IMG/VR virus record: IMGVR_UViG_3300027368_000102
Coordinates: 1-34,810 of that record
Direction: 5' to 3' (one strand)
Length of the DNA stretch: 34,810 nucleotides
Origin: a virus
Shown here: piece after piece, positions 470 to 34,733 of the stretch
Numbering within the stretch: position 1 is the stretch's first letter
How the letters are laid out: every line of letters starts with the position of its first letter
Made by a program: the position numbers and the translations under genes
The notes under the pieces: generated by a model
Told to the model about the DNA's origin: nothing
Seen by the model: only the letters and a program-made list of their open reading frames with translations
Database searches by the model: none

Positions 470-862
470 TTATCGAATGCTGCCAGCCCACATAGGTGGC
501 AATCGGTCTTTGACTTTTTCTAGGGCTGGTCCCATGAACGGTCGTTTGGGGTAATGCTCACGTCGAAACTTGCCACCAAACTCATGGGCTTTGCCAGCGG
601 TGGCAATCACATCGAAGTCAGGTCCGATGAGGGCCACGCCACGCTGTTTGTCGATTGCATACATGATCGATCGCTTGAGCTGGCCACGACGTGTGTTGGG
701 TGGACTACCTGGCATTGCAGCCGTCTGGCGTCTACGGATGGAGCGACGAGCCACCAAACGAATGGTCGCAGCCGCATGTCCAAGGCTTTTGAAGTTGCCT
801 TGCTGCGCCCTGCGTTTCACTTTGTCGATCGATTTCTTCGTGGTGACTTTAACGCCGATCAT
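470..862 (-). CDS. HK97 gp10-like head-tail/tail-completion protein
   Basis: 130-residue basic protein beginning MIGVKVTTKKSID. The open frame extends further upstream, but this ATG is chosen because it lies just 8 bases after the preceding stop and begins the conserved part. Features of the HK97 gp10 family are visible: a basic N-terminal helix region, the segment MPGSPPNTRRGQLKRSI (the family's PG.PP..RTG.L..SI pattern), a strand with ALIGPDFDVIATAGKAHEFG where the Y/H-E-F-G element is characteristic, and the ending RPFMGPALEKVKDRLP. Proteins of this family act at the head-tail joint or as tail completion factors. The gene lies between the large structural protein and the tail-tube-like gene, which fits. 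Confidence 0.8.
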   Translation of the reverse strand: MIGVKVTTKKSIDKVKRRAQQGNFKSLGHAAATIRLVARRSIRRRQTAAMPGSPPNTRRGQLKRSIMYAIDKQRGVALIGPDFDVIATAGKAHEFGGKFRREHYPKRPFMGPALEKVKDRLPPMWAGSIR

Positions 863-870
863 GGTTGCCC

Positions 871-2448
871 TTACGGTGCGGTGAATCCTTGTGCGTTGAC
901 GTAGACCGCAGCACCGGTGGTGATGCACGCAAAGTTCAGGGCCGCATTGGCCGTGGTCTTGAGTGGGTTCTCGAAGATGATCTCCGACATCGGAGCGTTG
1001 GCAGGCAAGTGACCTCGCCAAATGATCGTTGCTCCGTCTTTGAGGACGACTTCGGTGGCGACTGCCGAGTTGTTCGAGAGTTGCATCGAGCAGATGTAGC
1101 GACGCAGACTCGCACCCGCTGCGGCAACCAAGGGGACATCCGTCGTATTGATCGCACCACCCGCAGCAGCTACATACGACCATTCAAGTTCGGGAATTTG
1201 CCACGGACGCGTTACCAGTACACCTTGCAACGTAGAAACCAAGTCAGCCACATCACCGGTCGCGACGCTCGCGTACGCTGCTGTCTGCGCTCGCCCTGCG
1301 ACGCGCACAGGATTACCCGAGATAACAGCATCGTGGGCCGCCTGTCCGATAACGTTCGCTGTGACGGTTCCGATGTTGGTCGTGGTTGCGGTCGCACCGG
1401 TAAGGATCACCCCCACACCTTGACCGACGACGGTTTGGCCACGACCCGCAGTGATTTCAGCGGTGAGTTCCGCGTAATCCTGGCAGTTGATGAATTGGGA
1501 TTGGAAATTGATGTTCGCAGCTGGTGCGGCAGCGAGGGCAACGTGACCGGAACCTACAACGTATGAACCTCCAAACACGGTGCCGTTTAGATCAATCGTA
1601 TTGGGGTCGATCACCGTGGCGGAGTAATTGCCACGAACGGTAGCTCCATTGTTTGTAACACCTGCGAGATGATCTACCCACAGAGTTGGTGTTCCGGTGT
1701 ATCCATGTGCGGTCGACGTAAGACGGATGACATTGCCAGGTCCAGCGCCCGCGCCCGAAATCGCCTTGAAACCTTGATGATTCATCGAGCGGATGCGGAT
1801 TTTGTAGGTGGCGGTCGGATCTGGAATCTGTTGATGCCGAACGTACGAGTTCGAGCGTCCACCGGTCGAATCCATCGCTCGGGAGTGGAAGTAGCATTCG
1901 TCGGAGAATGGTTCGAGTTCGAGAATTGTGTAACTGACGGTGGTGACAATCGATGATGGCGCGGAGGGAAGTGGGGTCAGTCCGCCGTTTTGCACGCTAT
2001 AAACCATATTGCTAGCAGTCATATTCGCCGCACCGCCAAAGTCGATGTTCATGCTGTGCTTGCCATCCGGTATTCCGGTAGTTGGGTCCACCGAGACCGC
2101 TTCGATGATGTGATGCGTATTGGCTTGGCGAGGAGTTCCGGATTGAACCGCAATCATCGCTCGAAATGGAATCGTGAACGTGTCTTTCGAGAGCAGCTCG
2201 ACGTACCCTCCTGCGGTTGTTCCAGATCCGATGGTTAGGACGCCACCGGAGACGCTCGCCGTGGATCCACCGCTGGTGGTCAGATCCCAAAGGTCCGTCA
2301 GAGTTCGAGTCCAGGAATCGCGGAACTTCTTCTGGATCGATTTGACTTTGAACATGTCGTCCACGTCATCCAAGCCAGGAATCTCTCGGGTGACTCCACG
2401 CGAATTGGTGAACTGCATGCGGAATGGGCCAACGTCTCCGGTGGTCAT
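871..2448 (-). CDS. Large phage structural protein, unknown role
   Basis: 525 residues, starting MTTGDVGPFRMQFTNSRG. The N-terminal about 70 residues form a charged segment including DDVDDMFKVKSIQKKFRDSW. Residues about 60-210 look like a beta-rich carbohydrate- or lectin-type sandwich (alternating Ser/Thr/Gly strands). A middle element near VIRLTSTAHGYTGTPTLWVD followed by NTIDLNGT resembles a short beta-module found in many phage tail-associated proteins. The C-terminal 110 residues form another compact domain that starts near VPLVAAAGASLRRYICSMQL and looks like a decoration or receptor-proximal beta-domain. No catalytic motif is seen. It sits between tail-completion and gp10-like genes, an unusual position for such a long beta-rich protein; it may be a surface or neck decoration. 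The function is not established. Confidence 0.75.
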   Translation of the reverse strand: MTTGDVGPFRMQFTNSRGVTREIPGLDDVDDMFKVKSIQKKFRDSWTRTLTDLWDLTTSGGSTASVSGGVLTIGSGTTAGGYVELLSKDTFTIPFRAMIAVQSGTPRQANTHHIIEAVSVDPTTGIPDGKHSMNIDFGGAANMTASNMVYSVQNGGLTPLPSAPSSIVTTVSYTILELEPFSDECYFHSRAMDSTGGRSNSYVRHQQIPDPTATYKIRIRSMNHQGFKAISGAGAGPGNVIRLTSTAHGYTGTPTLWVDHLAGVTNNGATVRGNYSATVIDPNTIDLNGTVFGGSYVVGSGHVALAAAPAANINFQSQFINCQDYAELTAEITAGRGQTVVGQGVGVILTGATATTTNIGTVTANVIGQAAHDAVISGNPVRVAGRAQTAAYASVATGDVADLVSTLQGVLVTRPWQIPELEWSYVAAAGGAINTTDVPLVAAAGASLRRYICSMQLSNNSAVATEVVLKDGATIIWRGHLPANAPMSEIIFENPLKTTANAALNFACITTGAAVYVNAQGFTAP

Positions 2449-4973: not shown

Positions 4974-7028
4974 TTATGCCTCACCCTTGCACTTGATCGC
5001 TGCGCGTGGGTCTTGAAGACTCGCACCGAAGTCGTGATAACCGCGCATCTGGACGCCCAGGACGTTGAAATCAGCCGTAGCGGTTTCGATCGTTGGGGCT
5101 TCTTGGCCGTTCAAGAAAGCAACTTCGATCAGCGGAAGATCGTTGGGATCCGACAGCAAGTACCAAGCCTTGGTCGAATTCCCTGTATAAATCGTGTTGC
5201 CGAGGTAACGGCTGATCTCCACACGGAACTTACCAGCGTGAGGGTTGCTAATTGGAGTTCTGGCGTTGGCCGTGTTGTCTCGCATCTCCAAAGATTTGTA
5301 GAGCTGCGAGCCGATCGCGGACAATGACGTCGGCACCAGTAAAATCGCCGGCATCGTTCCGATCGGTTTTCCATCGGAGTCCACCAAGTCGTAGTAGGCA
5401 ACCTCTGCTTTGGTGAGCCCATCGATCGACAAAACGGTATCGGTCCCGGTCAAAAAGTTTTTGTTGCCTGCGGTGAAGAACGCCGAATTGTTCATGAACG
5501 TAGTCCAGAACACATCGTTGATCTTCATCCCTGATCCCCGGCCCAGCTTCCTAGGTACGGTGGTGATTGCTCCCAGATCATCGTTGATGAAATCTCGACG
5601 ATCCACACCGAGCATCAACCCGTAGGTGTCTGCCTTGTTCGTAAAGCTCTCGTTCCCAAGATTCCCGTGCTTGATTTCCCCCCCAGGGGCCACCAGCTCG
5701 TACTGATCTTTACCGATCAGCCGATAGCTCGTCACGGTTTTGAAGTCCGTTACATTACGCACCGAGCAGATGTTACGCCATGTGCGTTCCACGGTGTAGA
5801 AACCCTCAAGAAGGAACTTGTTTGCCACGTTCGAGAGAATTCCACCGATGTCGATATTGCTTACCGAGCTCGCTTCCACACGCTGGCCGAACGCTGCTCG
5901 CATCACCTCGCGGTTGTCTCGAAAAGTCCGTCCCGTATAACCATTGGCCCAAGCGGTTTCGAGCAGAAGTTCCTGAAGACCGATCCCCCCTCGGAACTTC
6001 TTGGAAGCAATCTCAAGGCTTTGCTCGGGAATATGCTGCTCGACGTCCATAAGATTAGCGCTGATATAACAGGCGGCCTCTAGGACGCTGGCGCTAATTG
6101 TGTTTTGCGGGACATGGATCGCAGGAACTTCGGGGCGCATCATTCGGATCTTCATGAGTTCAGCTTTCTCAAGGTTCCATCCTTCGCGGATCGCTTGGGC
6201 TTCGACTAGCGGAAGAGCCCCGTTGTAAATGCTGCGAATGCCAGCAATACGCTCGAGTTCAGTAGCATGGGCCGCCCTCATGGCTTCCACTTCGCTAATC
6301 CCCTCAGGAGGATTCGTGACTGGCTCGACTGGAACTGGATTCGGGGGAACCAAGACCGGTACTGGATCCGGAGCAACCGGAGTCGCTGGAGTTACGGCTT
6401 GGTCGTCTTGGTTTGCAGTTTGACTTTGATCCATCTCGGATTCTCCAAAGGTTGCAGATGCCTGAGCTGCGACACTCGCGCTAGTGGCTCCGTCGGCACC
6501 AAGGTCTACGAAACTGATTTCACCAAGCGAGGATCTTCGAATCACATTCACCGGACCGTTGTATTGGTTGCCGTTGACGGTGACCTTTTGACCTTCCTTG
6601 ACGAACTCGAACTCATCCACACCGGTCCCCACGCTTGCTTGCCATGGGAATCCGTTCTTTGAACTGACGACTACCTCACGAGCAGCAGGTGTATCCCGAG
6701 AGACCACACCGGTGGCTACAAGCTGGCCGGCCTCGACTCGGATCGAGTCGGTATGACCAACACCCGAGAGAGGATCGTGTCCGAATCGGATCGGCCGCGC
6801 TTGCGATGGGATCGATAGACCAGCCAGGTCGATGATCACAGGGTGCCGCCATCCAGCGACTCGCATCTGGCCACCTGTATATGCGACCATCCGAAAACGG
6901 GGGAGCACACCGCTTGATGCACCGTCAGCCGATGCATCGACATCGATCACCGCTGTTGCATTTAACCTCAGTTGGTTGCGATTCTCTTCGGCCTTAATCG
7001 TCGATGGGGACTTCATCGTCTTGGACAT
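4974..7028 (-). CDS. Prohead protease / major capsid protein fusion
   Basis: 684 residues combining maturation protease, linker/scaffold and capsid shell protein. Residues about 40-190 are an HK97-type prohead protease: His84 in RFGHD, Ser132 in WQASVG, and an acidic third residue in SLGEISFVDLGAD (Glu170 or Asp175). Residues about 205-245 are a Pro/Val-rich linker, about 245-335 is a helical scaffold-like region, and about 340-684 is the capsid domain with the substrate-like stretch ending IKCKGEA. The protease is expected to cut itself free during assembly. The start overlaps the 3' end of the portal gene by 35 bases; a second Met four codons in (7,016) is equally possible. Fused protease-capsid genes are known in other phages. 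A broken homologue of the protease part lies at 33,849-34,169. Confidence 0.93.
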   Translation of the reverse strand: MSKTMKSPSTIKAEENRNQLRLNATAVIDVDASADGASSGVLPRFRMVAYTGGQMRVAGWRHPVIIDLAGLSIPSQARPIRFGHDPLSGVGHTDSIRVEAGQLVATGVVSRDTPAAREVVVSSKNGFPWQASVGTGVDEFEFVKEGQKVTVNGNQYNGPVNVIRRSSLGEISFVDLGADGATSASVAAQASATFGESEMDQSQTANQDDQAVTPATPVAPDPVPVLVPPNPVPVEPVTNPPEGISEVEAMRAAHATELERIAGIRSIYNGALPLVEAQAIREGWNLEKAELMKIRMMRPEVPAIHVPQNTISASVLEAACYISANLMDVEQHIPEQSLEIASKKFRGGIGLQELLLETAWANGYTGRTFRDNREVMRAAFGQRVEASSVSNIDIGGILSNVANKFLLEGFYTVERTWRNICSVRNVTDFKTVTSYRLIGKDQYELVAPGGEIKHGNLGNESFTNKADTYGLMLGVDRRDFINDDLGAITTVPRKLGRGSGMKINDVFWTTFMNNSAFFTAGNKNFLTGTDTVLSIDGLTKAEVAYYDLVDSDGKPIGTMPAILLVPTSLSAIGSQLYKSLEMRDNTANARTPISNPHAGKFRVEISRYLGNTIYTGNSTKAWYLLSDPNDLPLIEVAFLNGQEAPTIETATADFNVLGVQMRGYHDFGASLQDPRAAIKCKGEA

Positions 7029-13177: not shown

Positions 13178-13504
13178 ATGGCCAACGAAAAGATTGACGT
13201 AACGGACCTCGACCTGGTGATCACCAAGATCGAAAAGCGAACTTCCAGCGGGGGAGCTTGGGTACGAGGCAAGATCAACAACGCGGTTCGGTTCGAAGCT
13301 CTGGTCTTCGCCGAACACGCAGAGAGCGAAGACTACGAACTCGGACGCACCAAGATTTCGAAGCTCTGGATTCAAGACATCCAAACCAAGAAGACCCTTT
13401 TCAACTTCGACCGCGGGTTGGATGTACCTGCCACGACCACCGAGATTCAGGTGGTGGTCGACTTCCTCGGATGCGGGTTGGCCGACCTGGTCTGGGGATC
13501 CTAA
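13178..13504 (+). CDS. Small conserved-type protein, unknown function
   Basis: 108 residues, beginning MANEKIDVTDLDLVI, with GGAGAAAC ahead of the ATG. The sequence alternates short strands (AWVRGKINNAVRFEALVFAEHA) with charged loops, ends VDFLGCGLADLVWG, and shows no membrane or catalytic motif. It looks like a small beta-rich fold. Its 140-base leader contains TTTCCACAT and ACGCCAAACGAA, repeated in the leader of the gene at 14,822. The stop is followed by an inverted repeat ATCCCGA...TCGGGAT (13,511-13,529). Confidence 0.7.
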   Translation: MANEKIDVTDLDLVITKIEKRTSSGGAWVRGKINNAVRFEALVFAEHAESEDYELGRTKISKLWIQDIQTKKTLFNFDRGLDVPATTTEIQVVVDFLGCGLADLVWGS

Positions 13505-13597
13505 GCCGAAATCCCGACACGATCGGGATCGTCGCTCGGTAGTGCGAGTGGCCTGACGATGGCAGCTAACCACGGTTCCAATACGGGAGAGAGACGA

Positions 13598-15969: not shown

Positions 15970-18168
15970 CTACTTAGCGTCTGCCGCACGCATCGGAATC
16001 GGCGAGGTTCCGGTTCTCTCGAGGACAGCCGGCTTGCCAGTGAACCGTTGGTACCGATCGACGATGACGTCGCTGTAAAGCGGGTCAAGCTCCATGAGGT
16101 ATGCATGCCGACCGGTCTGCTGGGCAGCGATCAAGGTCGATCCGCTACCACCAAACAGATCCAGCACGTTCTCTCCTGGTCGCGACGAGTACTGCATCGC
16201 GCGGACCGCCAGTTCGACAGGCTTCTCGGTCAGATGGACCATCGACTGCGGGTTGACTTTCTTGATCTGCCATAGATCCGTGGCGTTGTTGGGCCCTAGG
16301 TACACGTGCGCAGCCCCTTCAAGCCATCCATAAAAGCAATTATGGGTGACAAGCCCGTCGGCAATGTAGTGCTCGTGCGTATCGACCCCCAACGAGACAA
16401 CCTCACCAGAGTAGTCCTGGACATCAACGGCACGAATTGGAGTCCACTCCACATTTTGACCTCGCTTTGGAGTTGGAACCTCCATGCTGCCAGGGAGCAG
16501 ATTGCACGAACGTACTTGGATCGACTGCCGCGCTCCAAACTTTGCCCTGGTATCGTTTGATTCGACAAACGGATACTTTCGGTTTCGATTGAAGTGTGCA
16601 AGTGCGTTGCAAGCAGCCGCTTCTTGGGCATCTGCATCGAGTTGACCGTAAAAGTCCCTGATGTGATCACTTTGCCTGTGCGACGAGCTTCGGTTCGTGA
16701 CCCAGCATGTCTGCGGAATCCCAAACTGAATCGACACCAGCTGTTCTTGCATCCGAGCCTCCGCTGCCGAATCATGCAGCGAGAGAATCCAAGCCTCATC
16801 TCCAAGCTCATGAAGCAATCGTCCCTTTACACCAAAGCCCCAGGTGGTTCGCATCTTGGTCATACCAACGCGCCACCAAGTGCCACGACGCATAAGATAC
16901 ACGCACCATCGCGATGCGTAATCTTGGGTCATGCGTACCGTCCAGATGTGACCATCGGTCCCCCAGGATTGCTTCGACGGGGTTGCTACCCCATAGAGCT
17001 TTCCTCCGTAAGGCCGCCTGCCGACTTTGACTCGGTAGCCATCTCGCAAGCCCACGATTGCTGAGCTGTGCGAATAATAACTAACCACGCGATCGTCGTC
17101 ACGCATTTGGCCAAGCGTACTTGTTCCCCCTGCGGTTTGCACCATCGTATCTGGTGGTTGGCACCATTCATGGGCTCCCATGAAGTCCTTGCGGGTAAGC
17201 ACCGGGTGCATCTTGTCCCAGATGATTGCTTGGCTGAAATACAAACCATGCTTCTTGAGGAACGGTGGGTAGTTGCCGCAGTTGGCATACCCACCCCAGA
17301 TGTAGAAACCACGACCTGGGTCGAGCACCCGAGCGATGTTTCCAAACCATGCATCGAGCAATCGATCGAACTCTTGATCGCTCACAAAGTCGTTTGCCAA
17401 GGGACGATCCTTGGCTCGGAGTTTTTTGTGCGTCGCAGGATGCTTTGGCTTACCGGTCTCGTGGTCGACACCAAAGGAGGCTGCGTTCCCTTGGCCCCCT
17501 TTGAGCTTTTGTGAAGCGTTATCGTTCGAGAACGATGACAACCCCGCTGCGATCGCGTTGTTCGATCGCGGTTCCACCTTCACGTTGTAGGGCGGATCCG
17601 TGTTGACCAATTGGATGGTTTTACCACCCAAGAGTCGATCCAGGTCCTCGGGTTTCGATGAGTCCCCGCAGAGCAACCTATGATCACCCAAGATCCAAAG
17701 ATCTCCAGGTTGGGTTACCGCAGCATCCGGTGGTGCCGGCACATCATCGGGATCCGTGAGTCCTTCGTTTACGTCCCCGCTCATGAGCTTTAGAAGCTCA
17801 TCGGAATCAAAACCCAGGAGCGATAGATCAAATCCTGCTGTTTGAAGTTCACCAAGTTCGATCGGCAAGAGATCGAAATTCCAATCGGCCAATTCCGAAC
17901 TCTTGTTGTCGGCGATCCGGTAGGCCTTGATCTGCTCGGGGGTAAGATCCGTGGCCACATGGATCGGTACCTTCTCAAGGCCAAGCTTCTGCGCGGCTTT
18001 GAATCGGGTATGTCCGCAAATGATCACCCCATCGGTATCCACAACGATCGGTTGTCGGAACCCGAACTCCTTGATGCTACTTGCGACAGCATCGACCGCA
18101 TCATCGTTGATGCGGGGGTTGTTCGGGTATGGTTTGATTTCCGCTATCGGTCTAATGTCAATTTTCAT
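15970..18168 (-). CDS. ParB-like plus N4/N6 DNA methyltransferase, intein-interrupted
   Basis: 732-residue precursor. Residues 1-95 are a ParB/sulfiredoxin-fold domain (IKPYPNNPRIND, VIICGHTRFKAAQKLG). The methyltransferase follows: catalytic DPPY at 191-194, and the SAM-binding FGGSGS at 672-677 after KPVELAVRAM, i.e. the beta-class order. Between them, residues 336-610 are an intein, inserted exactly before the Cys of the conserved EWCFYGW...GAAH motif; after splicing the enzyme would be about 457 residues, normal for this family. The ParB-methylase combination is common in phages and modifies adenine or cytosine amino groups, likely protecting phage DNA. The gene is terminal in the early operon; AGGAAA lies ahead of the ATG. 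Confidence 0.93.
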   Translation of the reverse strand: MKIDIRPIAEIKPYPNNPRINDDAVDAVASSIKEFGFRQPIVVDTDGVIICGHTRFKAAQKLGLEKVPIHVATDLTPEQIKAYRIADNKSSELADWNFDLLPIELGELQTAGFDLSLLGFDSDELLKLMSGDVNEGLTDPDDVPAPPDAAVTQPGDLWILGDHRLLCGDSSKPEDLDRLLGGKTIQLVNTDPPYNVKVEPRSNNAIAAGLSSFSNDNASQKLKGGQGNAASFGVDHETGKPKHPATHKKLRAKDRPLANDFVSDQEFDRLLDAWFGNIARVLDPGRGFYIWGGYANCGNYPPFLKKHGLYFSQAIIWDKMHPVLTRKDFMGAHEWCQPPDTMVQTAGGTSTLGQMRDDDRVVSYYSHSSAIVGLRDGYRVKVGRRPYGGKLYGVATPSKQSWGTDGHIWTVRMTQDYASRWCVYLMRRGTWWRVGMTKMRTTWGFGVKGRLLHELGDEAWILSLHDSAAEARMQEQLVSIQFGIPQTCWVTNRSSSHRQSDHIRDFYGQLDADAQEAAACNALAHFNRNRKYPFVESNDTRAKFGARQSIQVRSCNLLPGSMEVPTPKRGQNVEWTPIRAVDVQDYSGEVVSLGVDTHEHYIADGLVTHNCFYGWLEGAAHVYLGPNNATDLWQIKKVNPQSMVHLTEKPVELAVRAMQYSSRPGENVLDLFGGSGSTLIAAQQTGRHAYLMELDPLYSDVIVDRYQRFTGKPAVLERTGTSPIPMRAADAK
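16339..17163 (-). mobile_element. Intein with GIY-YIG-like insert (275 residues)
   Basis: Host residues 336-610. Block A starts at Cys336 (CQPPDTMVQTAGG). Block B is at GTDGHIWTV (Thr404/His407). Blocks F and G are VVSLGVDTHEHYIADGLVTHN with final His609-Asn610, and the +1 residue is Cys611. The splice junctions join EW to CFYGW, restoring the methyltransferase consensus. No LAGLIDADG (DOD) endonuclease blocks are present; instead residues about 421-490 hold WCVYLMRRGTWWRVGMTK and EARMQEQLVSIQFGIP, which resemble the GIY-YIG nuclease core (Y...VG, then a catalytic Glu such as 470 or 475). The insert may therefore be a homing nuclease of uncommon type or a decayed one. Confidence 0.9.
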
Positions 18169-28255: not shown

Positions 28256-28672
28256 TCACTTGTTAGTGCGTTTGAGACCGAACCATGCGCTCCGTTGCTT
28301 ACTCCAGCTTGGATACATCGAGATTTCCTGAAGCTCCTTCAGCCCAATTTGATCCCGCATGACATTCTTGCCAACTTGGAGAAGAATATCCTCCTGGATC
28401 TCTGGCGCAAGCAACCGTAGATTCATGATCTGCGTGACACGAGCCCGCGTCACGTGCCCAAGTCGGGCAAGGTCAGCGAAATCTGTGACCACCCCTTTCT
28501 TGATAAGACCCTCGAAGTGAATCGCGAGTGCCATATAGCGAGCGATCCGAGGGATTCGTTCTAGAGGTTTCGTCTCTACCGAAGGGCCCTTTTTCTCAAC
28601 CATTTTCTTTCGGGCACCTCGGCCCTGAGGCTTGATTGAGAACTGAAAATCGACGCTTAATGTATCGTTCAT
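28256..28672 (-). CDS. HTH protein of the recombinase cassette
   Basis: 138 residues from MNDTLSVDFQFSIKPQGRG; a longer open frame upstream overlaps the recombinase gene and is rejected because this ATG overlaps the recombinase stop as ATGA. A helix-turn-helix is seen in VTDFADLARLGHVTRARVTQ followed by IMNLRLLAPEIQEDILL, with a basic N-terminal tail. The same neighbour occurs after planctomycete-type large serine recombinases and may act as a regulator or excision-directing factor; this is inference. Confidence 0.75.
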   Translation of the reverse strand: MNDTLSVDFQFSIKPQGRGARKKMVEKKGPSVETKPLERIPRIARYMALAIHFEGLIKKGVVTDFADLARLGHVTRARVTQIMNLRLLAPEIQEDILLQVGKNVMRDQIGLKELQEISMYPSWSKQRSAWFGLKRTNK

Positions 28673-30243
28673 GATGCGGCTTCCGCAAGTTCTGGTTTGT
28701 TGCTTCTGGCGATCGATTTGATTCCGTCCGGGTGAAACGTGATGGTAACTCGCCCATTGGCACCGTCGTAATCGACCTGCTTGACGATTAGCTTGACGAT
28801 CCGTGATTGTTCGCGAACCGTGAGCGATTCCCAAACCGGCTCAAAGCTATCGAGCGCTGTTGCTACATCGTTGGATGTCAGCGCCTGCGACTTTAGTAGG
28901 GTTAGTTTTGCGTTGACGATGGTGAGCCGATTCTCAGCAATCCGAAGATCCTCATGCCAATCTGCTAACTGTTTCAGCAGGTTCGCATCTGGGGAATTTG
29001 GTTTGATTTTGGGGGCAGCAATTCGGATGGCTTCGTTCCAATACTCGATTTCCTTGACGATCTCGTCCTGTTCGGCAACAAGGGCGTCGAGCTCGTGTTG
29101 TGTCTGTACTTCAGCTTGCTGCACGACCTCGTCGACAAGCCTCTCGTTTTCTACGACTTGGCGTATCTTTTCGACTACGAACTTCTCGATTTCCGCAGCT
29201 GGCACCGACCTCGACTCGCAGATCCGTCTGCCACGCTTCTGGGCCTTCATGCACACGTAGTATCGGTAGCGTTTGGCCCCACTCTTTGTCGTATGCGTCG
29301 GAGTCATCGAGCAATCGCAACAGGAGCATCGCAGAATTCCCTTGAGCAAGGCACCAAATTTGTTTCTTGCATCGACACCGCCAGTCCGACCGTTTCGTCG
29401 AAGCAAGGACTGGACCCTTTGCCACACATCGAGCGTGACGATCGGGTCGTGTTCACCTTCGTTGATTTCGTCTTTGTAGGCTAATTTGCCAATGTAGGTC
29501 ACGTTGGTAAGGAGTCGGAACAGCGTTGCTTTGGTGAACGGCGAACCGCCTCGAAGCATGCCTTTCTTGGTATTCCATGATTTGTTGTTCCAGCCACGGT
29601 TGTCGAGTTCAGCGATGGTCGCCATGATCGATTCGCGATCCAAGTATAGATCGTAGATCGCCCTGACTCTATTGGCCTCGACCTCGTTGATTCGAAGCTT
29701 GCCACCTTGCGGCTCGATGTCGTATCCAAGCAGAGGCATCCCCCCGGACCATTTTCCCTTTCGCCGAGCGGCAGCGATCTTGTCGCGGGTACGCTCTGAT
29801 ATGATCTCGCGTTCAAACTGGGCGAACGACAAGAGCACGTTGAGCATCAGCCGGCCCATCGAGTTGGTCGTGTTGAATTGCTGAGTTACGCTTACGAATG
29901 CAACTTGATGACGTTCGAAGACTTCGAGCATGCGAGCGAAGTCCATCAGCGAACGGCTCAGTCGATCGACTTTGTAGACGACCACGCAGTTGACCTTCCC
30001 AGCTTCGATGTCCGCCAGTAGTTGCTTTAGAGCCGGACGATCCATGTTGCCACCGGTGAACCCACCGTCGTCATAGTGATCGGGCAGGCAGTTCCAGCCC
30101 TCTTGCGTTTGGCTTTTGATGTAGGCTTCGGCGCATTCGCGTTGAGCATCGAGGGAATTGAACTCTTTGTCTAGCCCCTCGTCTGTGGACTTCCGGGTGT
30201 AGATCGCACAGTTCAGCCTGCGATTGTTGTTGAGTTTGTTCAT
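28669..30243 (-). CDS. Large serine recombinase (integrase)
   Basis: 524 residues. The N-terminal resolvase domain has the nucleophile Ser19 in YTRKSTDEG, VVYKVDRLSRSLMDFARMLE and MGRLMLNVLLSFAQFEREII. The recombinase domain follows with GYDIEPQGGKLRINEVEANR, then the zinc ribbon with CSCCDCSMTP and later Cys residues, then a long coiled coil at about 380-460. This class integrates phage DNA between short attP and attB sites in one direction without supercoiling. It is coupled by ATGA overlaps to the genes on both sides. Confidence 0.96.
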   Translation of the reverse strand: MNKLNNNRRLNCAIYTRKSTDEGLDKEFNSLDAQRECAEAYIKSQTQEGWNCLPDHYDDGGFTGGNMDRPALKQLLADIEAGKVNCVVVYKVDRLSRSLMDFARMLEVFERHQVAFVSVTQQFNTTNSMGRLMLNVLLSFAQFEREIISERTRDKIAAARRKGKWSGGMPLLGYDIEPQGGKLRINEVEANRVRAIYDLYLDRESIMATIAELDNRGWNNKSWNTKKGMLRGGSPFTKATLFRLLTNVTYIGKLAYKDEINEGEHDPIVTLDVWQRVQSLLRRNGRTGGVDARNKFGALLKGILRCSCCDCSMTPTHTTKSGAKRYRYYVCMKAQKRGRRICESRSVPAAEIEKFVVEKIRQVVENERLVDEVVQQAEVQTQHELDALVAEQDEIVKEIEYWNEAIRIAAPKIKPNSPDANLLKQLADWHEDLRIAENRLTIVNAKLTLLKSQALTSNDVATALDSFEPVWESLTVREQSRIVKLIVKQVDYDGANGRVTITFHPDGIKSIARSNKPELAEAAS

Positions 30244-30740
30244 TGCTCCCTACTTTTCTTGCTAAGTTTGAAGAAGTGATACCCATTGCAGTGCTGCCCT
30301 GTGATCTTTTTGGCCACAGCGCTGAGCGTCTTGTAGATTGCTCCGTCGTATTCGAAGCCGGTTTCCAGGACCAGAACTAGAATCTTTTGGCCCTTGTAGA
30401 CCCGCTCGATGACTGATCTTGGGGGAGGTAGACGGCTGTCTTCTCCCGGCTCGACGAATCCGGTCACCGTGTCAGCCACAGGGTTTGTCACCGGTTTGGT
30501 AGCCTTGGGGGCCGTCGTTCGGATGTCGGTGCCGCGTGCGAGTTCGGCCGCCCGACTTCTAGCACGCTCGGAAATGTCACCCTCGATATTGGCTTGCATC
30601 TTCCAAGCGATGCGTTTGACGAGCCACTGTTTGTTGCGCGTGTTGGTCGGCTCGCCCCACGTCTCTTCGAACCTCTCTCGCAGCTGCCCAACCGTCATGC
30701 GTTGGAGCAGCGCGACCTCTTTGTCGATGTCTAGTTGCAT
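30240..30740 (-). CDS. DUF2924 protein of the recombinase cassette
   Basis: 166 residues from MQLDIDKEVALLQRM, chosen because AAGGAG lies six bases ahead of the ATG. DUF2924 features: MTVGQLRERFEETWGEPTNT, RNKQWLVKRIAWKMQANIEG, then a variable middle and RVYKGQKILVLVLETGFEYD, YKTLSAVAKKITGQHCNGYH with FFKL. It ends in an ATGA overlap with the recombinase start. The family sits ahead of serine recombinases in alphaproteobacteria and planctomycetes and is thought to assist them, but the mechanism is not known. Confidence 0.92.
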   Translation of the reverse strand: MQLDIDKEVALLQRMTVGQLRERFEETWGEPTNTRNKQWLVKRIAWKMQANIEGDISERARSRAAELARGTDIRTTAPKATKPVTNPVADTVTGFVEPGEDSRLPPPRSVIERVYKGQKILVLVLETGFEYDGAIYKTLSAVAKKITGQHCNGYHFFKLSKKSREQ

Positions 30741-30763
30741 TGATTTCTCCTTAGAAAGCGGAC

Positions 30764-30976
30764 TCACTGGTCGTTAACCACGTTGGTCATAGAGAGCACG
30801 CTTTCTGGAGAAAGCTCAAGGCAAGCTGGTGGTGATTTGTAGGGATCGTTGGCAATTTCTGGATCGCGGATCGCCAAACGCGATTTCATTCGAACGATAC
30901 CGGCCGCAAGAATCGCAGCGATTTCCGATTGCCGAGCTTGGGCAGACAAAGAAGAAGGGGGAACAGTCGAGAGCAC
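30764..30976 (-). CDS. Small protein opening the recombinase cassette
   Basis: 70 residues with a GTG start at 30,976. The central part SEIAAILAAGIVRMKSRLAI and ending ACLELSPESVLSMTNVVNDQ follow the pattern seen in small unnamed proteins upstream of DUF2924 genes. It may be a DNA-binding or recombinase-accessory protein; the short length and odd start make the boundary uncertain. It is the outermost gene of the cassette; att sequences are expected just outside it. Confidence 0.6.
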   Translation of the reverse strand: MLSTVPPSSLSAQARQSEIAAILAAGIVRMKSRLAIRDPEIANDPYKSPPACLELSPESVLSMTNVVNDQ

Positions 30977-31221: not shown

Positions 31222-32442
31222 ATGAAAAAACGTGATCGACGAAAGCGACAAACTATTACGGCAAAAGCAGCCTCCAAGCTTGCGTCTACTGAAACAAGCA
31301 AAGAATTAGTGAGACCGTTACGGCTATATGCCATCTGGACGTTGAGTGCGCTTTGTGCGTTAGTCGTCACTGTTCTAGGTATTTGGAGTCTCTCTGCTCC
31401 GTCGCAAACGGCGATTAAAACTGCGAATCCTAGATTGCGAGCCACGCAGCCAAAGGATCCTGTTCTTCCAACCTTCGCTGACTTGACCATGATGACCGAA
31501 GAGGAGTTGAGCAAGCAGGACATTGCTTTACTGAATCTACGAGCTACTGATGGATTGCCTGGCACAGAGAATGTGAACGTTGCACAACTGCTGGCTCAGT
31601 TAGATGGCTGGGCGAAGAAGGTCAGGATAGACACCGATCGCAACCTCTACCAGTTCTTACAAAAGCCGAACGAATTCAACAACTCGGAAGCTTACTTCCG
31701 GATGTTGATATTGGTCACAGTTTTGCAACAAGACTTCGGCGTTCATTACAACTTGGAGCGAGTCAAAGATATTGACTTCACAAAGAGCCAAGATCTTTTC
31801 CTTCACGGTATCGTTGGCAGTTCAAACGGTGGTACTTGTGTCTCGATGCCAGTCCTGTACACGGCGGTCGCTCGACGACTCGGTTATCCCGTCTACTTGG
31901 TGAACGCGAAGGAGCATCTATTTTGCCGATGGGATAAATCTGGCGAACGCGTGAATGTCGAAGGCACCAATCGAGGATTGAATAGTTTCGCCGATGATCA
32001 CTACATGAGCTGGCCGCATCCGATCGCTCAACACGAAGTAGATGCCGGACTTTATCTGAAATCACTTTCGAACGCCGAGTCCTTTGCGGCTTTTCTTGCC
32101 GCACGGGGCCATTGCTTGGAAGACAGCGGCAATCGTTCCGACGCTGCTGTAAGTTATTCGCTTGCTGTGAAGCACTATCCACATCCGATGTATCGCGGTT
32201 TTCTTTCACGACTCGTTCGTCCCAAGACCATCGATGACTTTCCAGAGCTACTTGCGCAGCAAGAACGATTGCGTCAAAAGCGCGATCTGCAATTCAATCA
32301 ACTTGGACCACCAACTTCAAATCCGACTGCGTCATTTGGGTTTGGTAATCCAGTGACGCAAGGGAATCTAAACTACGATACCTTCAACCACGTTACACCG
32401 CCAAACTTTTCTAACAATCCCAATGGAGCTTCAGGAAGATGA
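31222..32442 (+). CDS. Membrane-anchored transglutaminase-like protein (SirB1-like fold)
   Basis: 406 residues. A positively charged start, then a transmembrane helix at about 35-57, then an extracytoplasmic domain. The transglutaminase-like core is GGTCVSMPVLYTAVARRLGY (Cys206), VNAKEHLFCRWD (His232) and RVNVEGTNRG (Glu247), the layout of the SirB1/transglutaminase-like superfamily. The C-terminal 70 residues are Asn/Pro-rich and disordered. Such folds act as cysteine proteases or cross-linking enzymes. It is the first gene of a three-gene unit whose next gene begins in its stop codon (ATGA), so they are co-translated and probably act together. Confidence 0.82.
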   Translation: MKKRDRRKRQTITAKAASKLASTETSKELVRPLRLYAIWTLSALCALVVTVLGIWSLSAPSQTAIKTANPRLRATQPKDPVLPTFADLTMMTEEELSKQDIALLNLRATDGLPGTENVNVAQLLAQLDGWAKKVRIDTDRNLYQFLQKPNEFNNSEAYFRMLILVTVLQQDFGVHYNLERVKDIDFTKSQDLFLHGIVGSSNGGTCVSMPVLYTAVARRLGYPVYLVNAKEHLFCRWDKSGERVNVEGTNRGLNSFADDHYMSWPHPIAQHEVDAGLYLKSLSNAESFAAFLAARGHCLEDSGNRSDAAVSYSLAVKHYPHPMYRGFLSRLVRPKTIDDFPELLAQQERLRQKRDLQFNQLGPPTSNPTASFGFGNPVTQGNLNYDTFNHVTPPNFSNNPNGASGR

Positions 32443-33167
32443 ATCATCGACGAATTCTAATCGCATTGTTTGCATGCCAAATGGCAATCCAGTTCGCGAG
32501 CTCTGCTCTAGCAATGTACGACCCAGGACTGGGGCGATTTTTGTCGCGAGATCCAGCGGGCTATACGCCAATTGCACACAATCTTCACGAATATGTAGCT
32601 TCCAATCCCGTCTATTACGTCGACCCGTTAGGGCTTGAACGGCGGCTACCCGAGCCAAACAAAGTACCAAAACTTGACCCCAAAGATCCACCCAAATTAC
32701 CTCCGTTCGGCCCTAAGTTTCCAGAGCCATTAGATCCAAAGGAGCCATTCAAACCTCGAGGTGATGCTGGACCTCGTACGTCCGGTTTTCTCATTATTAC
32801 GTGCAATTGTCCCAAGCCTGACTCATACTACATTCCGATTGTCAGTGGAGGAGACAACTCGTACCCTGGTTATCCGCCATACGATAAGAATGACCAGATA
32901 GGTCAACATGCTGAAGGGCAATGTCGAGCTATTCGCGACCATTATAAGGCATCCGACAAATTCAAGGACTGTAGCTTTTCTTGCTACATAAACAACATTC
33001 CATGCAAAGATGGGTGCGAAAAAATTGATGACATACCGATTTATCATCCAGGTCCGAAGGACCCAACTGATCCCTACAACAATCCGAAGGATCCACCCGG
33101 CCCGACTGTCCCTCATTGCACAAAAACTCCAGACGGTTGGGTGTGCCAAAATCCTTCCGTGAGGTGA
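32439..33167 (+). CDS. Secreted protein with one isolated RHS hallmark and a Cys-rich tail
   Basis: 242 residues. Residues 1-25 are a signal peptide. Right after it is the RHS-associated core: YDPGLGRFLSRDPAGY (27-42), NLHEYVASNPVYYVDPLGL (48-66). In RHS toxins this sequence ends the shell and precedes the variable toxin tip. Here the shell repeats are missing. A Pro/Lys-rich linker (about 68-108) follows, then a Cys-rich domain with CNC, GQHAEGQCRAIRDHYK, DCSFSCYINNIPCKDGC and VCQNPS. The Cys-rich part resembles no domain that I recognise. It is the expected toxin or effector of the unit, or a decayed RHS tip that acquired a signal peptide. Confidence 0.72.
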   Translation: MNHRRILIALFACQMAIQFASSALAMYDPGLGRFLSRDPAGYTPIAHNLHEYVASNPVYYVDPLGLERRLPEPNKVPKLDPKDPPKLPPFGPKFPEPLDPKEPFKPRGDAGPRTSGFLIITCNCPKPDSYYIPIVSGGDNSYPGYPPYDKNDQIGQHAEGQCRAIRDHYKASDKFKDCSFSCYINNIPCKDGCEKIDDIPIYHPGPKDPTDPYNNPKDPPGPTVPHCTKTPDGWVCQNPSVR

Positions 33168-33173
33168 TGTTCG

Positions 33174-33734
33174 ATGCTGATTGACTTGGATGACACGATT
33201 TGGTCGGAATTGCGACATGCCTATGGCAATGCCTCATCGATACCCCAAACTCTTCGTGAGATGTACTCGGGCGACGATGTGGCGGACGAAAAGTTTTTGG
33301 GTTTCACAAATGCAGTTTCACATCAAGGATCTGTATACAACGCAAGTTTCGCTGCGTTCCCGCATCTTGTGAAGATTGGCATTAGTGCCGGGAGGTATCA
33401 TGAGATTGCATTTTCGATCGCAGAGATAATTCTTTATGACGCATTGTCTGGAGATGGCGCCACGCTACCTCCTATGAGCGACAGGCTACATCAAGGATTC
33501 ATGTACGGATTGGCGATGGGGCGAGCATACCTCTCAAAGCAACTGGAGCTAGAATTTTTAAACTCAAGCGATCCTACCGAGCTTTACCTTCTACGGCGGA
33601 TTTCGTTGTTTCGGATGAGGCCACGCGTAACCATGTTGCTAGATACCGTTAGTCGAAATTTCCACTGTCCGCTTTGTAGGGAGACAATCGAGAATCCGAT
33701 TGAAGCATTATGTCCCTTTCCGTATTCTAAATAA
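33174..33734 (+). CDS. Probable immunity-type protein
   Basis: 186 residues, cytoplasmic, no signal. IWSELRHAYGNASSIPQTLR and FTNAVSHQGSVYNASFAAFP match a pattern seen in unnamed bacterial proteins often next to toxin genes (L.HAYG.A.DIP..L and ..HQG.VY.A...A.P.L), probably an alpha-helical HEAT-like repeat. The C-terminus has CPLC and a later Cys, possibly a zinc site. Start follows AGGTGATG, six bases after the preceding stop. In polymorphic toxin systems the gene just downstream of the toxin is the immunity gene, so this is the natural reading; it is not proven. Confidence 0.65.
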   Translation: MLIDLDDTIWSELRHAYGNASSIPQTLREMYSGDDVADEKFLGFTNAVSHQGSVYNASFAAFPHLVKIGISAGRYHEIAFSIAEIILYDALSGDGATLPPMSDRLHQGFMYGLAMGRAYLSKQLELEFLNSSDPTELYLLRRISLFRMRPRVTMLLDTVSRNFHCPLCRETIENPIEALCPFPYSK

Positions 33735-33848: not shown

Positions 33849-34169
33849 TCAACGACGACAGGCCATGATGTCGTCGGTACGACCCACGATACTGGCGCGA
33901 TCGTGGTCCTTGAGGATTGGGCGCGACTTGCGAGTCACTCGCATGCCTGCGAAGTCCACAACCACAGGGTAAGGCCAGCCACCAAGACGCATTGCGCCAT
34001 CGGTGTAAGCGACCATAGAGAACTTTCGCAACGCCGGCTTGCCTTCTTCGGCAGCCTCAGCGGCTTGTAAACTGATCGAACTGGCATCGTCACAAACGAT
34101 TCGTAGCGAGCTGGGTACCGACTAGGCATCCACCTCACTCTGCTGGTTCGACTGCAATGTCTTCGTCAT
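33849..34169 (-). pseudogene. Broken prohead protease/capsid gene of a second prophage
   Basis: Reading from an ATG at 34,169 (MTKTLQSNQQSEVDA) there is an in-frame TAG at 34,122-34,124, after which the same frame continues through VPSSLRIVCDDASSISLQAA, then KFSMVAYTDGAMRLGGWPYP and VVVDFAGMRVTRKSRPI. This aligns with residues 22-95 of the intact fusion (RMVAYTGGQMRVAGWRHPVI), and the homology stops near GRTDDI. The catalytic His region is altered (LKDHD in place of RFGHD). So it is a stop-containing and truncated relic, from a different phage than the intact copy because many residues differ. Confidence 0.88.
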
Positions 34170-34196
34170 CCGTTACATCTCCTGGAGAAAGTGAAG

Positions 34197-34656: not shown

Positions 34657-34660
34657 CAAG

Positions 34661-34733
34661 CTCCCCCGGGTGGGCTCGAACCACCGACACGCGGATTAAC
34701 AGTCCGCTGCTCTGCCGACTGAGCTACAGGGGA
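34661..34733 (-). tRNA. tRNA-Asn (anticodon GTT)
   Basis: A complete 73-base cloverleaf. Acceptor stem TCCCCTG/CGGGGGA, D-arm GCTCAGTCGGCAGAGC, anticodon stem GCGGA/TCCGC with loop CTGTTAA (anticodon GTT), T-arm GGTGG-TTCGAGC-CCACC and discriminator G. The 3' CCA is not encoded. Transcribed leftwards with the terminator downstream. A broken second copy lies upstream at the right edge. Confidence 0.97.

Follow-up and report, generated by a model that had tools for sequence, protein, structure and literature searches.

The cassette and its three genes

The window, the whole stretch of 34,810 nucleotides analysed here, is an IMG/VR virus record in which phage-like genes lie chiefly on the minus strand and end at a large serine recombinase. 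Three further open reading frames sit beyond this prophage end, which is formed by the recombinase and a DUF2924 gene, and ahead of a tRNA-Asn at 34660–34733. The same recombinase/DUF2924 prophage end also adjoins related cassettes in many contigs. Among named relatives, locus L004, from a Pirellula metagenome-assembled genome, was the closest found. The features of the cassette and its neighbour are:

31222–32442, plus strand: gene 1, predicted membrane-anchored transglutaminase-like protein of 406 residues, the constant component (PF13369; invariant C206/H232/N245/E247; N-terminal hydrophobic segment)
32439–33167, plus strand: gene 2, mini-RHS protein of 242 residues made up of a signal peptide, an RHS hallmark and a Cys-rich tip; proposed toxin (TIGR03696; hydropathy and sequence)
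32514–32636, plus strand: RHS hallmark of gene 2, MYDPGLGRFLSRDPAG...DPLGL (identity break against L004 and L009; hallmark alignment A4)
32655–33164, plus strand: exchangeable tip of gene 2 with a possible deaminase-like site (HAE ... PCKDGC), a candidate (SNAD4, E 0.095; four-member family A3; low-confidence model)
33174–33734, plus strand: gene 3, possibly HEAT-like cytoplasmic protein of 186 residues, proposed immunity protein (intact without toxin in L154 and L153; longer homologue L159 matches HEAT_2)
28669–30767, minus strand: neighbouring prophage end, outside the cassette, with the large serine recombinase (28669–30243; PF00239, 4.6e-39) and the DUF2924 gene (30240–30767; PF11149, 2.5e-36)

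An earlier sequence-only reading of this DNA had described three open reading frames, the first two coupled by an ATGA overlap (32439–32442) and the last two separated by six bases (33168–33173), and all of these are present at the positions given there.

Gene 1 matches the Pfam family PF13369 (Transglut_core2) over residues 123–259 with an E value of 2.7e-8, and its score of 33.9 bits exceeds the curated cut-off of 23.5, making it a member of the transglutaminase-like superfamily. The N-terminus is rich in Lys and Arg and is followed by a single hydrophobic segment near residues 37–54, which suggests, on hydropathy alone, one N-terminal membrane anchor. An alignment of 10 sequences with identities down to 24% shows no variation at Cys206, His232, Asn245 or Glu247; all 35 family members inspected have the Cys and the His, and one has Asp in place of the Glu. 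Judged by these residues, gene 1 apparently encodes a transglutaminase-like enzyme with its catalytic residues intact. The Pfam match, the hydrophobic segment and the conserved residues bear out the membrane-anchored Cys206/His232/Glu247 protein proposed earlier. Its family forms a separate high-scoring clade, with more than 200 bits against its own model, compared with less than about 108 bits for generic Transglut_core2 proteins. No relatives were found in 50,697 phage records or in a plasmid collection.

Gene 2 matches TIGR03696 (Rhs_assc_core; E 1.2e-9) through residues 26–66 only, equivalent to model positions 37–76 of 76. Because just the last 40 positions of the model are covered, gene 2 has the hallmark and no RHS repeats; the cage-forming RHS/YD repeats are absent, and the mature part ahead of the tip is about 41 residues long. 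Hydropathy and sequence point to a signal-peptide-like N-terminus (MNHRRILIALFACQ...SSALA) ahead of the hallmark, and the tail behind it contains nine Cys, in agreement with the secreted RHS-hallmark protein with a Cys-rich tail that had been predicted. Two DPxG motifs, DPAG and DPLGL, precede the tip and are 20 residues apart. In a full-length Rhs protein the C-terminal cage plug has a pair of DPLGL motifs, the second of which contains the catalytic Asp, and autocleavage behind the second DPxGL has been demonstrated for full-length Rhs1 (PMC8636562). By its sequence, gene 2 is a protein that keeps the Rhs C-terminal plug without the cage. The hallmark is the sole constant part of gene 2 across loci.

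The tip of the window belongs to the four-member family A3, and few further relatives were found in the viral contigs and 241 genomes. Its best lead is a candidate deaminase-like site, HAE and PCKDGC set against the HxE and PCxxC zinc site of SNAD4-like deaminases, together with a weak SNAD4 match; a deaminase identity was not accepted because the sister tips are without the HAE ligand. A structure model from four sequences (pLDDT 45.6) was too poor for use, and the best match in a fold search had an E value of 2.9.

Gene 3 matches no family in Pfam or NCBIfam. It contains the HAYG and HQGSVY motifs by which the earlier reading had characterized it, and its relatives have an N-terminal HAYG ... 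HQGxVYEA motif in common. The longer homologue in L159 matches HEAT_2 with an E value of 6.6e-14. A single-sequence structure model of gene 3 is helical and, with a pLDDT of 44.6, too poor for use.

Several other features were observed in the window and in related contigs. The phage part contains a Type II hammerhead ribozyme match (13504–13571, plus strand; RF02276, 43.3 bits, above the gathering score) and a 732-residue open reading frame (15970–18168, minus strand) whose translation, judged by eye, resembles a ParB/DNA methyltransferase protein split by an intein-like insert with a VTHNC-type junction at its end. The segment at 33868–34170 (minus strand) is a degenerate copy of the beginning of a capsid/protease-type phage gene and shares about 40% identity with the N-terminus of the window frame at 4974–7028; a 59-base piece of this segment also follows displaced cassettes in L004, L009 and L053. 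In L010 (50–1735 and 1732 onwards), and likewise in L012, L015 and L017, a phage gene resembling window 655–2344 is fused to the recombinase at window position 29418. The same junction in four contigs, with the intervening DNA missing, probably represents a defective prophage.

Recurrence of the gene pair in Planctomycetota

Relatives of gene 1 were sought with a model built from gene 1 itself and independent of RHS content. At the family level 14 of 199 genomes gave a match at 1e-8, and at the order level 30 of 397 did so at 1e-10. The phylum-level search returned matches in 100 of 392 genomes at 1e-10, with only seven matches (six genomes) above 200 bits; the remaining matches are generic Transglut_core2 proteins, all below about 102 bits. 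Pairing was counted over 35 intact, unclipped gene 1 loci with sequence remaining downstream, that of G001 being counted once. An RHS hallmark lies directly downstream of gene 1 in 32 of the 35, on the same strand and with a start within about 550 bases. The three exceptions are L089, where the hallmark is upstream, L103, where a hallmark-free protein follows, and L050, where gene 1 is truncated. L089, in which a PilM-like gene comes after the enzyme, was dropped as an exception to the pairing, a mini-RHS gene having been found upstream of the enzyme.

The order in L089/L175 (G453:C82) is inverted: a mini-RHS gene with a signal peptide is followed by a membrane protein and then by a membrane-anchored transglutaminase-like gene. 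At L103 (G240:C60, 3200–4093) the transglutaminase-like gene precedes a 297-residue protein with a GIY-YIG-like stretch and without the RHS hallmark.

No RHS hallmark was seen downstream of any of 24 generic Transglut_core2 genes, in control loci that spanned only about 500–1250 bases downstream. Since the arrangement of genes 1 and 2 was found again in about 30 other genomes and the control gave 0/24, chance adjacency of the two genes is excluded. The pairing holds down to about 25% identity of gene 1 and in differing genomic settings. Absence of the three genes together elsewhere had been named as grounds for refuting the earlier reading; genes 1 and 2 do occur together, which leaves it unrefuted for this pair, and gene 3 varies with the tip. 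Divergence of the hallmark correlates with that of gene 1 (Mantel r 0.43, p 2e-4), a co-divergence that is expected from either recognition or plain linkage.

The predicted compartments of the two proteins also match. Hydropathy, used here in place of a trained predictor, assigns both the gene 1 anchor and the gene 2 signal peptide in 8 loci, neither in 24 and a mixed state in none; L134 (gene 1 start disrupted), L088 (contig end) and L103 (no RHS core) were left out of this count. Mapped on a maximum-likelihood gene 1 tree, anchor and signal peptide change state jointly three times, at least two of these changes being independent and forced by supported branches. Fisher's test gives p 9.5e-8, a value that treats loci as independent and is descriptive only. 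In seven loci (L041, L042, L051, L091, L094, L095 and L104) the third gene product is predicted to be membrane-bound or exported although gene 2 carries no signal peptide, and therefore the toxin may still reach the envelope.

Exchange of tips and third genes

The variable parts of the cassette are polymorphic: at E 1e-3, 44 tips form up to 36 clusters, an upper bound because the end of the hallmark was set imprecisely in some of them, and 38 third genes form 30 clusters. The exchange can be followed between the window and L004 or L009, which share about 98.5% DNA identity through gene 1 and agree completely over the first ~102 bases of gene 2. Identity then breaks off inside the hallmark, and both the tip and the third gene differ. 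This switch is the tip displacement known for rhs genes, beside which displaced short tips are normal (PMC2935791), and displaced tip/third-gene cassettes are also present in L004, L009 and L011. Those of L004 and L011 that have no gene 1 of their own retain intact mini-RHS genes; therefore the enzyme is perhaps dispensable for some copies, or acts from a distance. The divergent loci L044 and L094 have one tip/third-gene pair in common. RHS open reading frames of 2,000–6,300 residues occur elsewhere in many of the genomes with a cassette. A signal peptide or start codon of its own and the ATGA overlap with gene 1 characterize gene 2, and this form is kept over large divergence in about 30 genomes.

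Some tips belong to known families. The L099 tip matches CDI_toxin_EC869_like (PF21111, E 1.5e-21), and its third gene gives a weak match to the second half of the CdiI model PF07262 (E 0.0083, below the Pfam cut-off). The tip of L135 matches TGL (E 7.7e-25) and that of L095 phospholipase A2 (E 9.2e-6); weaker matches among other tips are to phospholipase A2 and an M76-like peptidase, and HExxH was seen by eye in several others.

Third genes also persist where the toxin is gone. L154 equals the window locus minus 31495–33137, a loss that takes away the catalytic region of gene 1 together with almost the whole of gene 2 and leaves gene 3 intact, overlapped by the shortened leader frame. In L053 residues 1–42 of gene 1 are fused to the last residues of a tip, and the 281-residue third gene is intact. 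L012 and L013 join residues 1–227 of gene 1 to a tip-like tail; the LRR protein encoded next is full length (287 residues) in L013 and shorter in L012. In L153 gene 3 alone is present. No intact toxin with a broken third gene was noticed among the loci viewed. Retention of immunity genes after toxin loss is typical of such systems (PMC9086364). The relics at L053 (6757–7569) and L173 (2921–3202) adjoin an integrase-like gene, with a trigger-factor-like gene and a tRNA-like stretch nearby, at sites that are without the serine-recombinase prophage.

The loci thus combine a constant part and exchangeable C-terminal tips, a downstream third gene that changes with the tip, and displaced or orphan cassettes (L004, L009, L011, L053, L153 and L154), as polymorphic toxin–immunity systems do. 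Gene 3 is not a constant partner of genes 1 and 2 and differs along with the tip, which is the behaviour of immunity genes. On several independent lines, comparison of the loci gives good support to the toxin-tip and immunity roles suggested in the sequence-only reading, through the swap at the hallmark, the co-changing and orphan third genes, and the CDI-type toxin with a CdiI-like gene in L099. By analogy with the known toxin families among related tips, toxicity and its neutralization by the third protein are likely. We infer from these comparisons that genes 2 and 3 very probably form a toxin and its immunity protein.

Recombination clearly exchanges DNA just downstream of gene 1, and linkage alone would yield the correlated divergence of hallmark and gene 1. 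Both would suit a gene 1 with no toxin role, either a conserved landing site or an ordinary housekeeping gene, with rhs tip cassettes recombining in behind it. We find this improbable: the pairing survives to about 25% identity of gene 1, in varied settings and in the inverted order of L089; anchor and signal peptide change jointly; gene 1 disappears along with the toxin in relics; and its presence in 14 of 199 family genomes is too rare for a housekeeping gene. More improbable still is a role as phage cargo, in which the cassette would keep other phages out or defend the lysogen and would not be a weapon against other bacteria. The cassette does adjoin the prophage recombinase in many viral contigs of the window lineage, and a capsid-type phage gene remnant lies to its right; the association is partly one of sampling, because these contigs came from a search of a viral collection. 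Most relatives in other genomes, however, are on contigs without recognizable phage frames nearby, the 50,697 phage records gave no match, and the tip families are antibacterial-type toxins.

Proposed role of the enzyme and comparison with known systems

We consider it fairly probable that the cassette is a polymorphic toxin–immunity system with a transglutaminase-like enzyme that acts in trans, its target being an Rhs plug without a cage. Gene 2 would be a small secreted Rhs-type toxin in which a signal peptide and the C-terminal plug precede an exchangeable tip, and gene 3 would encode the cognate immunity protein of that tip. Gene 1 would be the constant second component and share the compartment of gene 2. 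It would most likely recognize the hallmark and either free the tip by cleavage behind it or link the hallmark to an envelope acceptor. The toxin would then be processed or presented in trans, replacing the role of the Rhs cage. If gene 1 acts on gene 2, its most likely target is the hallmark, because the hallmark alone is conserved across unrelated tips; that it does so we rate at even chances. The processing or cross-linking of the RHS protein that had been proposed from the sequence is consistent with the invariant catalytic residues, the near-obligate linkage and the matched compartments; reaction and substrate alike are inferred. L103, where the enzyme is followed by a hallmark-free protein, counts against the pairing of enzyme and hallmark, and linkage and co-variation could stem from shared history instead of enzyme–substrate recognition.

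The near-obligate linkage and matched compartments suit binding as well as catalysis. The main alternative keeps the toxin–immunity system and makes gene 1 a non-catalytic anchor or chaperone that would keep the small Rhs protein at the envelope by binding its hallmark, a role proposed by Zhang et al. for the N-terminal transglutaminase domains of RHS toxins (PMC3482391). Unlike those inactive domains, gene 1 retains its residues, and Cys and His in 35 of 35 members, with an acid that shows a single conservative change, are not expected of a pure binder; we therefore regard this alternative as unlikely. Returning to an enzyme that acts in trans, we put forward, tentatively, that Planctomycetota possess a distinct two-component class of polymorphic toxins in which a dedicated transglutaminase-fold enzyme may replace the Rhs cage and read the bare hallmark as a cleavage or sorting tag, with sortase-like release of the tip or its attachment to the envelope.

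Rhs toxins are understood as cages that hold the toxin until self-cleavage. In these cassettes the cage is gone, the plug motif is kept and an enzyme gene is now the near-obligate partner of the plug. Two questions thereby become directly testable: can an enzyme in trans use the Rhs hallmark as its recognition tag, and by what means do planctomycetes, in which antagonism has received little study, deploy their toxins? The cassettes also supply a large set of uncharacterized toxin tips with matching immunity candidates. A literature search, with subscription literature mostly outside its scope, found no published account of cage-less Rhs toxins paired with an intact transglutaminase-like gene that is separate from them; for the pair of genes 1 and 2 it yielded nothing beyond general Rhs papers and the polymorphic toxin survey of 2012.

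The cassette resembles Rhs-class polymorphic toxins (PMC3482391, PMC2935791, PMC8636562) in its hallmark before a variable tip, the two DPxG motifs, the downstream immunity-like gene, the displaced tip cassettes and the exchange at the hallmark. It differs from them in having no RHS repeats, and hence no cage, and no PAAR or T6SS N-terminus; the signal peptide stands directly before the hallmark, and a separate transglutaminase-like gene is the constant partner. In the RHS toxins with an inactive transglutaminase described by Zhang et al. in 2012 (PMC3482391), too, an RHS sequence and varied C-terminal toxins go with a transglutaminase-like domain that is preceded by a signal peptide or TM helix, whereas here the transglutaminase is a separate overlapping gene that retains Cys, His and acid, and no RHS array is present. 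Orphan rhs toxins of Salmonella (PMC7043789, PMC3967940) are also short Rhs proteins with a toxin tip and without a conserved delivery part, but those are displaced copies beside full-length rhs, while here the short form is the main copy, coupled to the enzyme gene. With the CdiA-CT/CdiI pair of E. coli EC869 (PF21111/PF07262; PMC9071432) the link runs through L099, whose tip matches PF21111 and whose third gene weakly matches PF07262; CdiA/CdiB delivery is absent, and the window tip belongs to another family. Gene 1 itself is of the same superfamily by sequence as other Transglut_core2 (PF13369) proteins, but stands apart from them as a clade tied to RHS tips.
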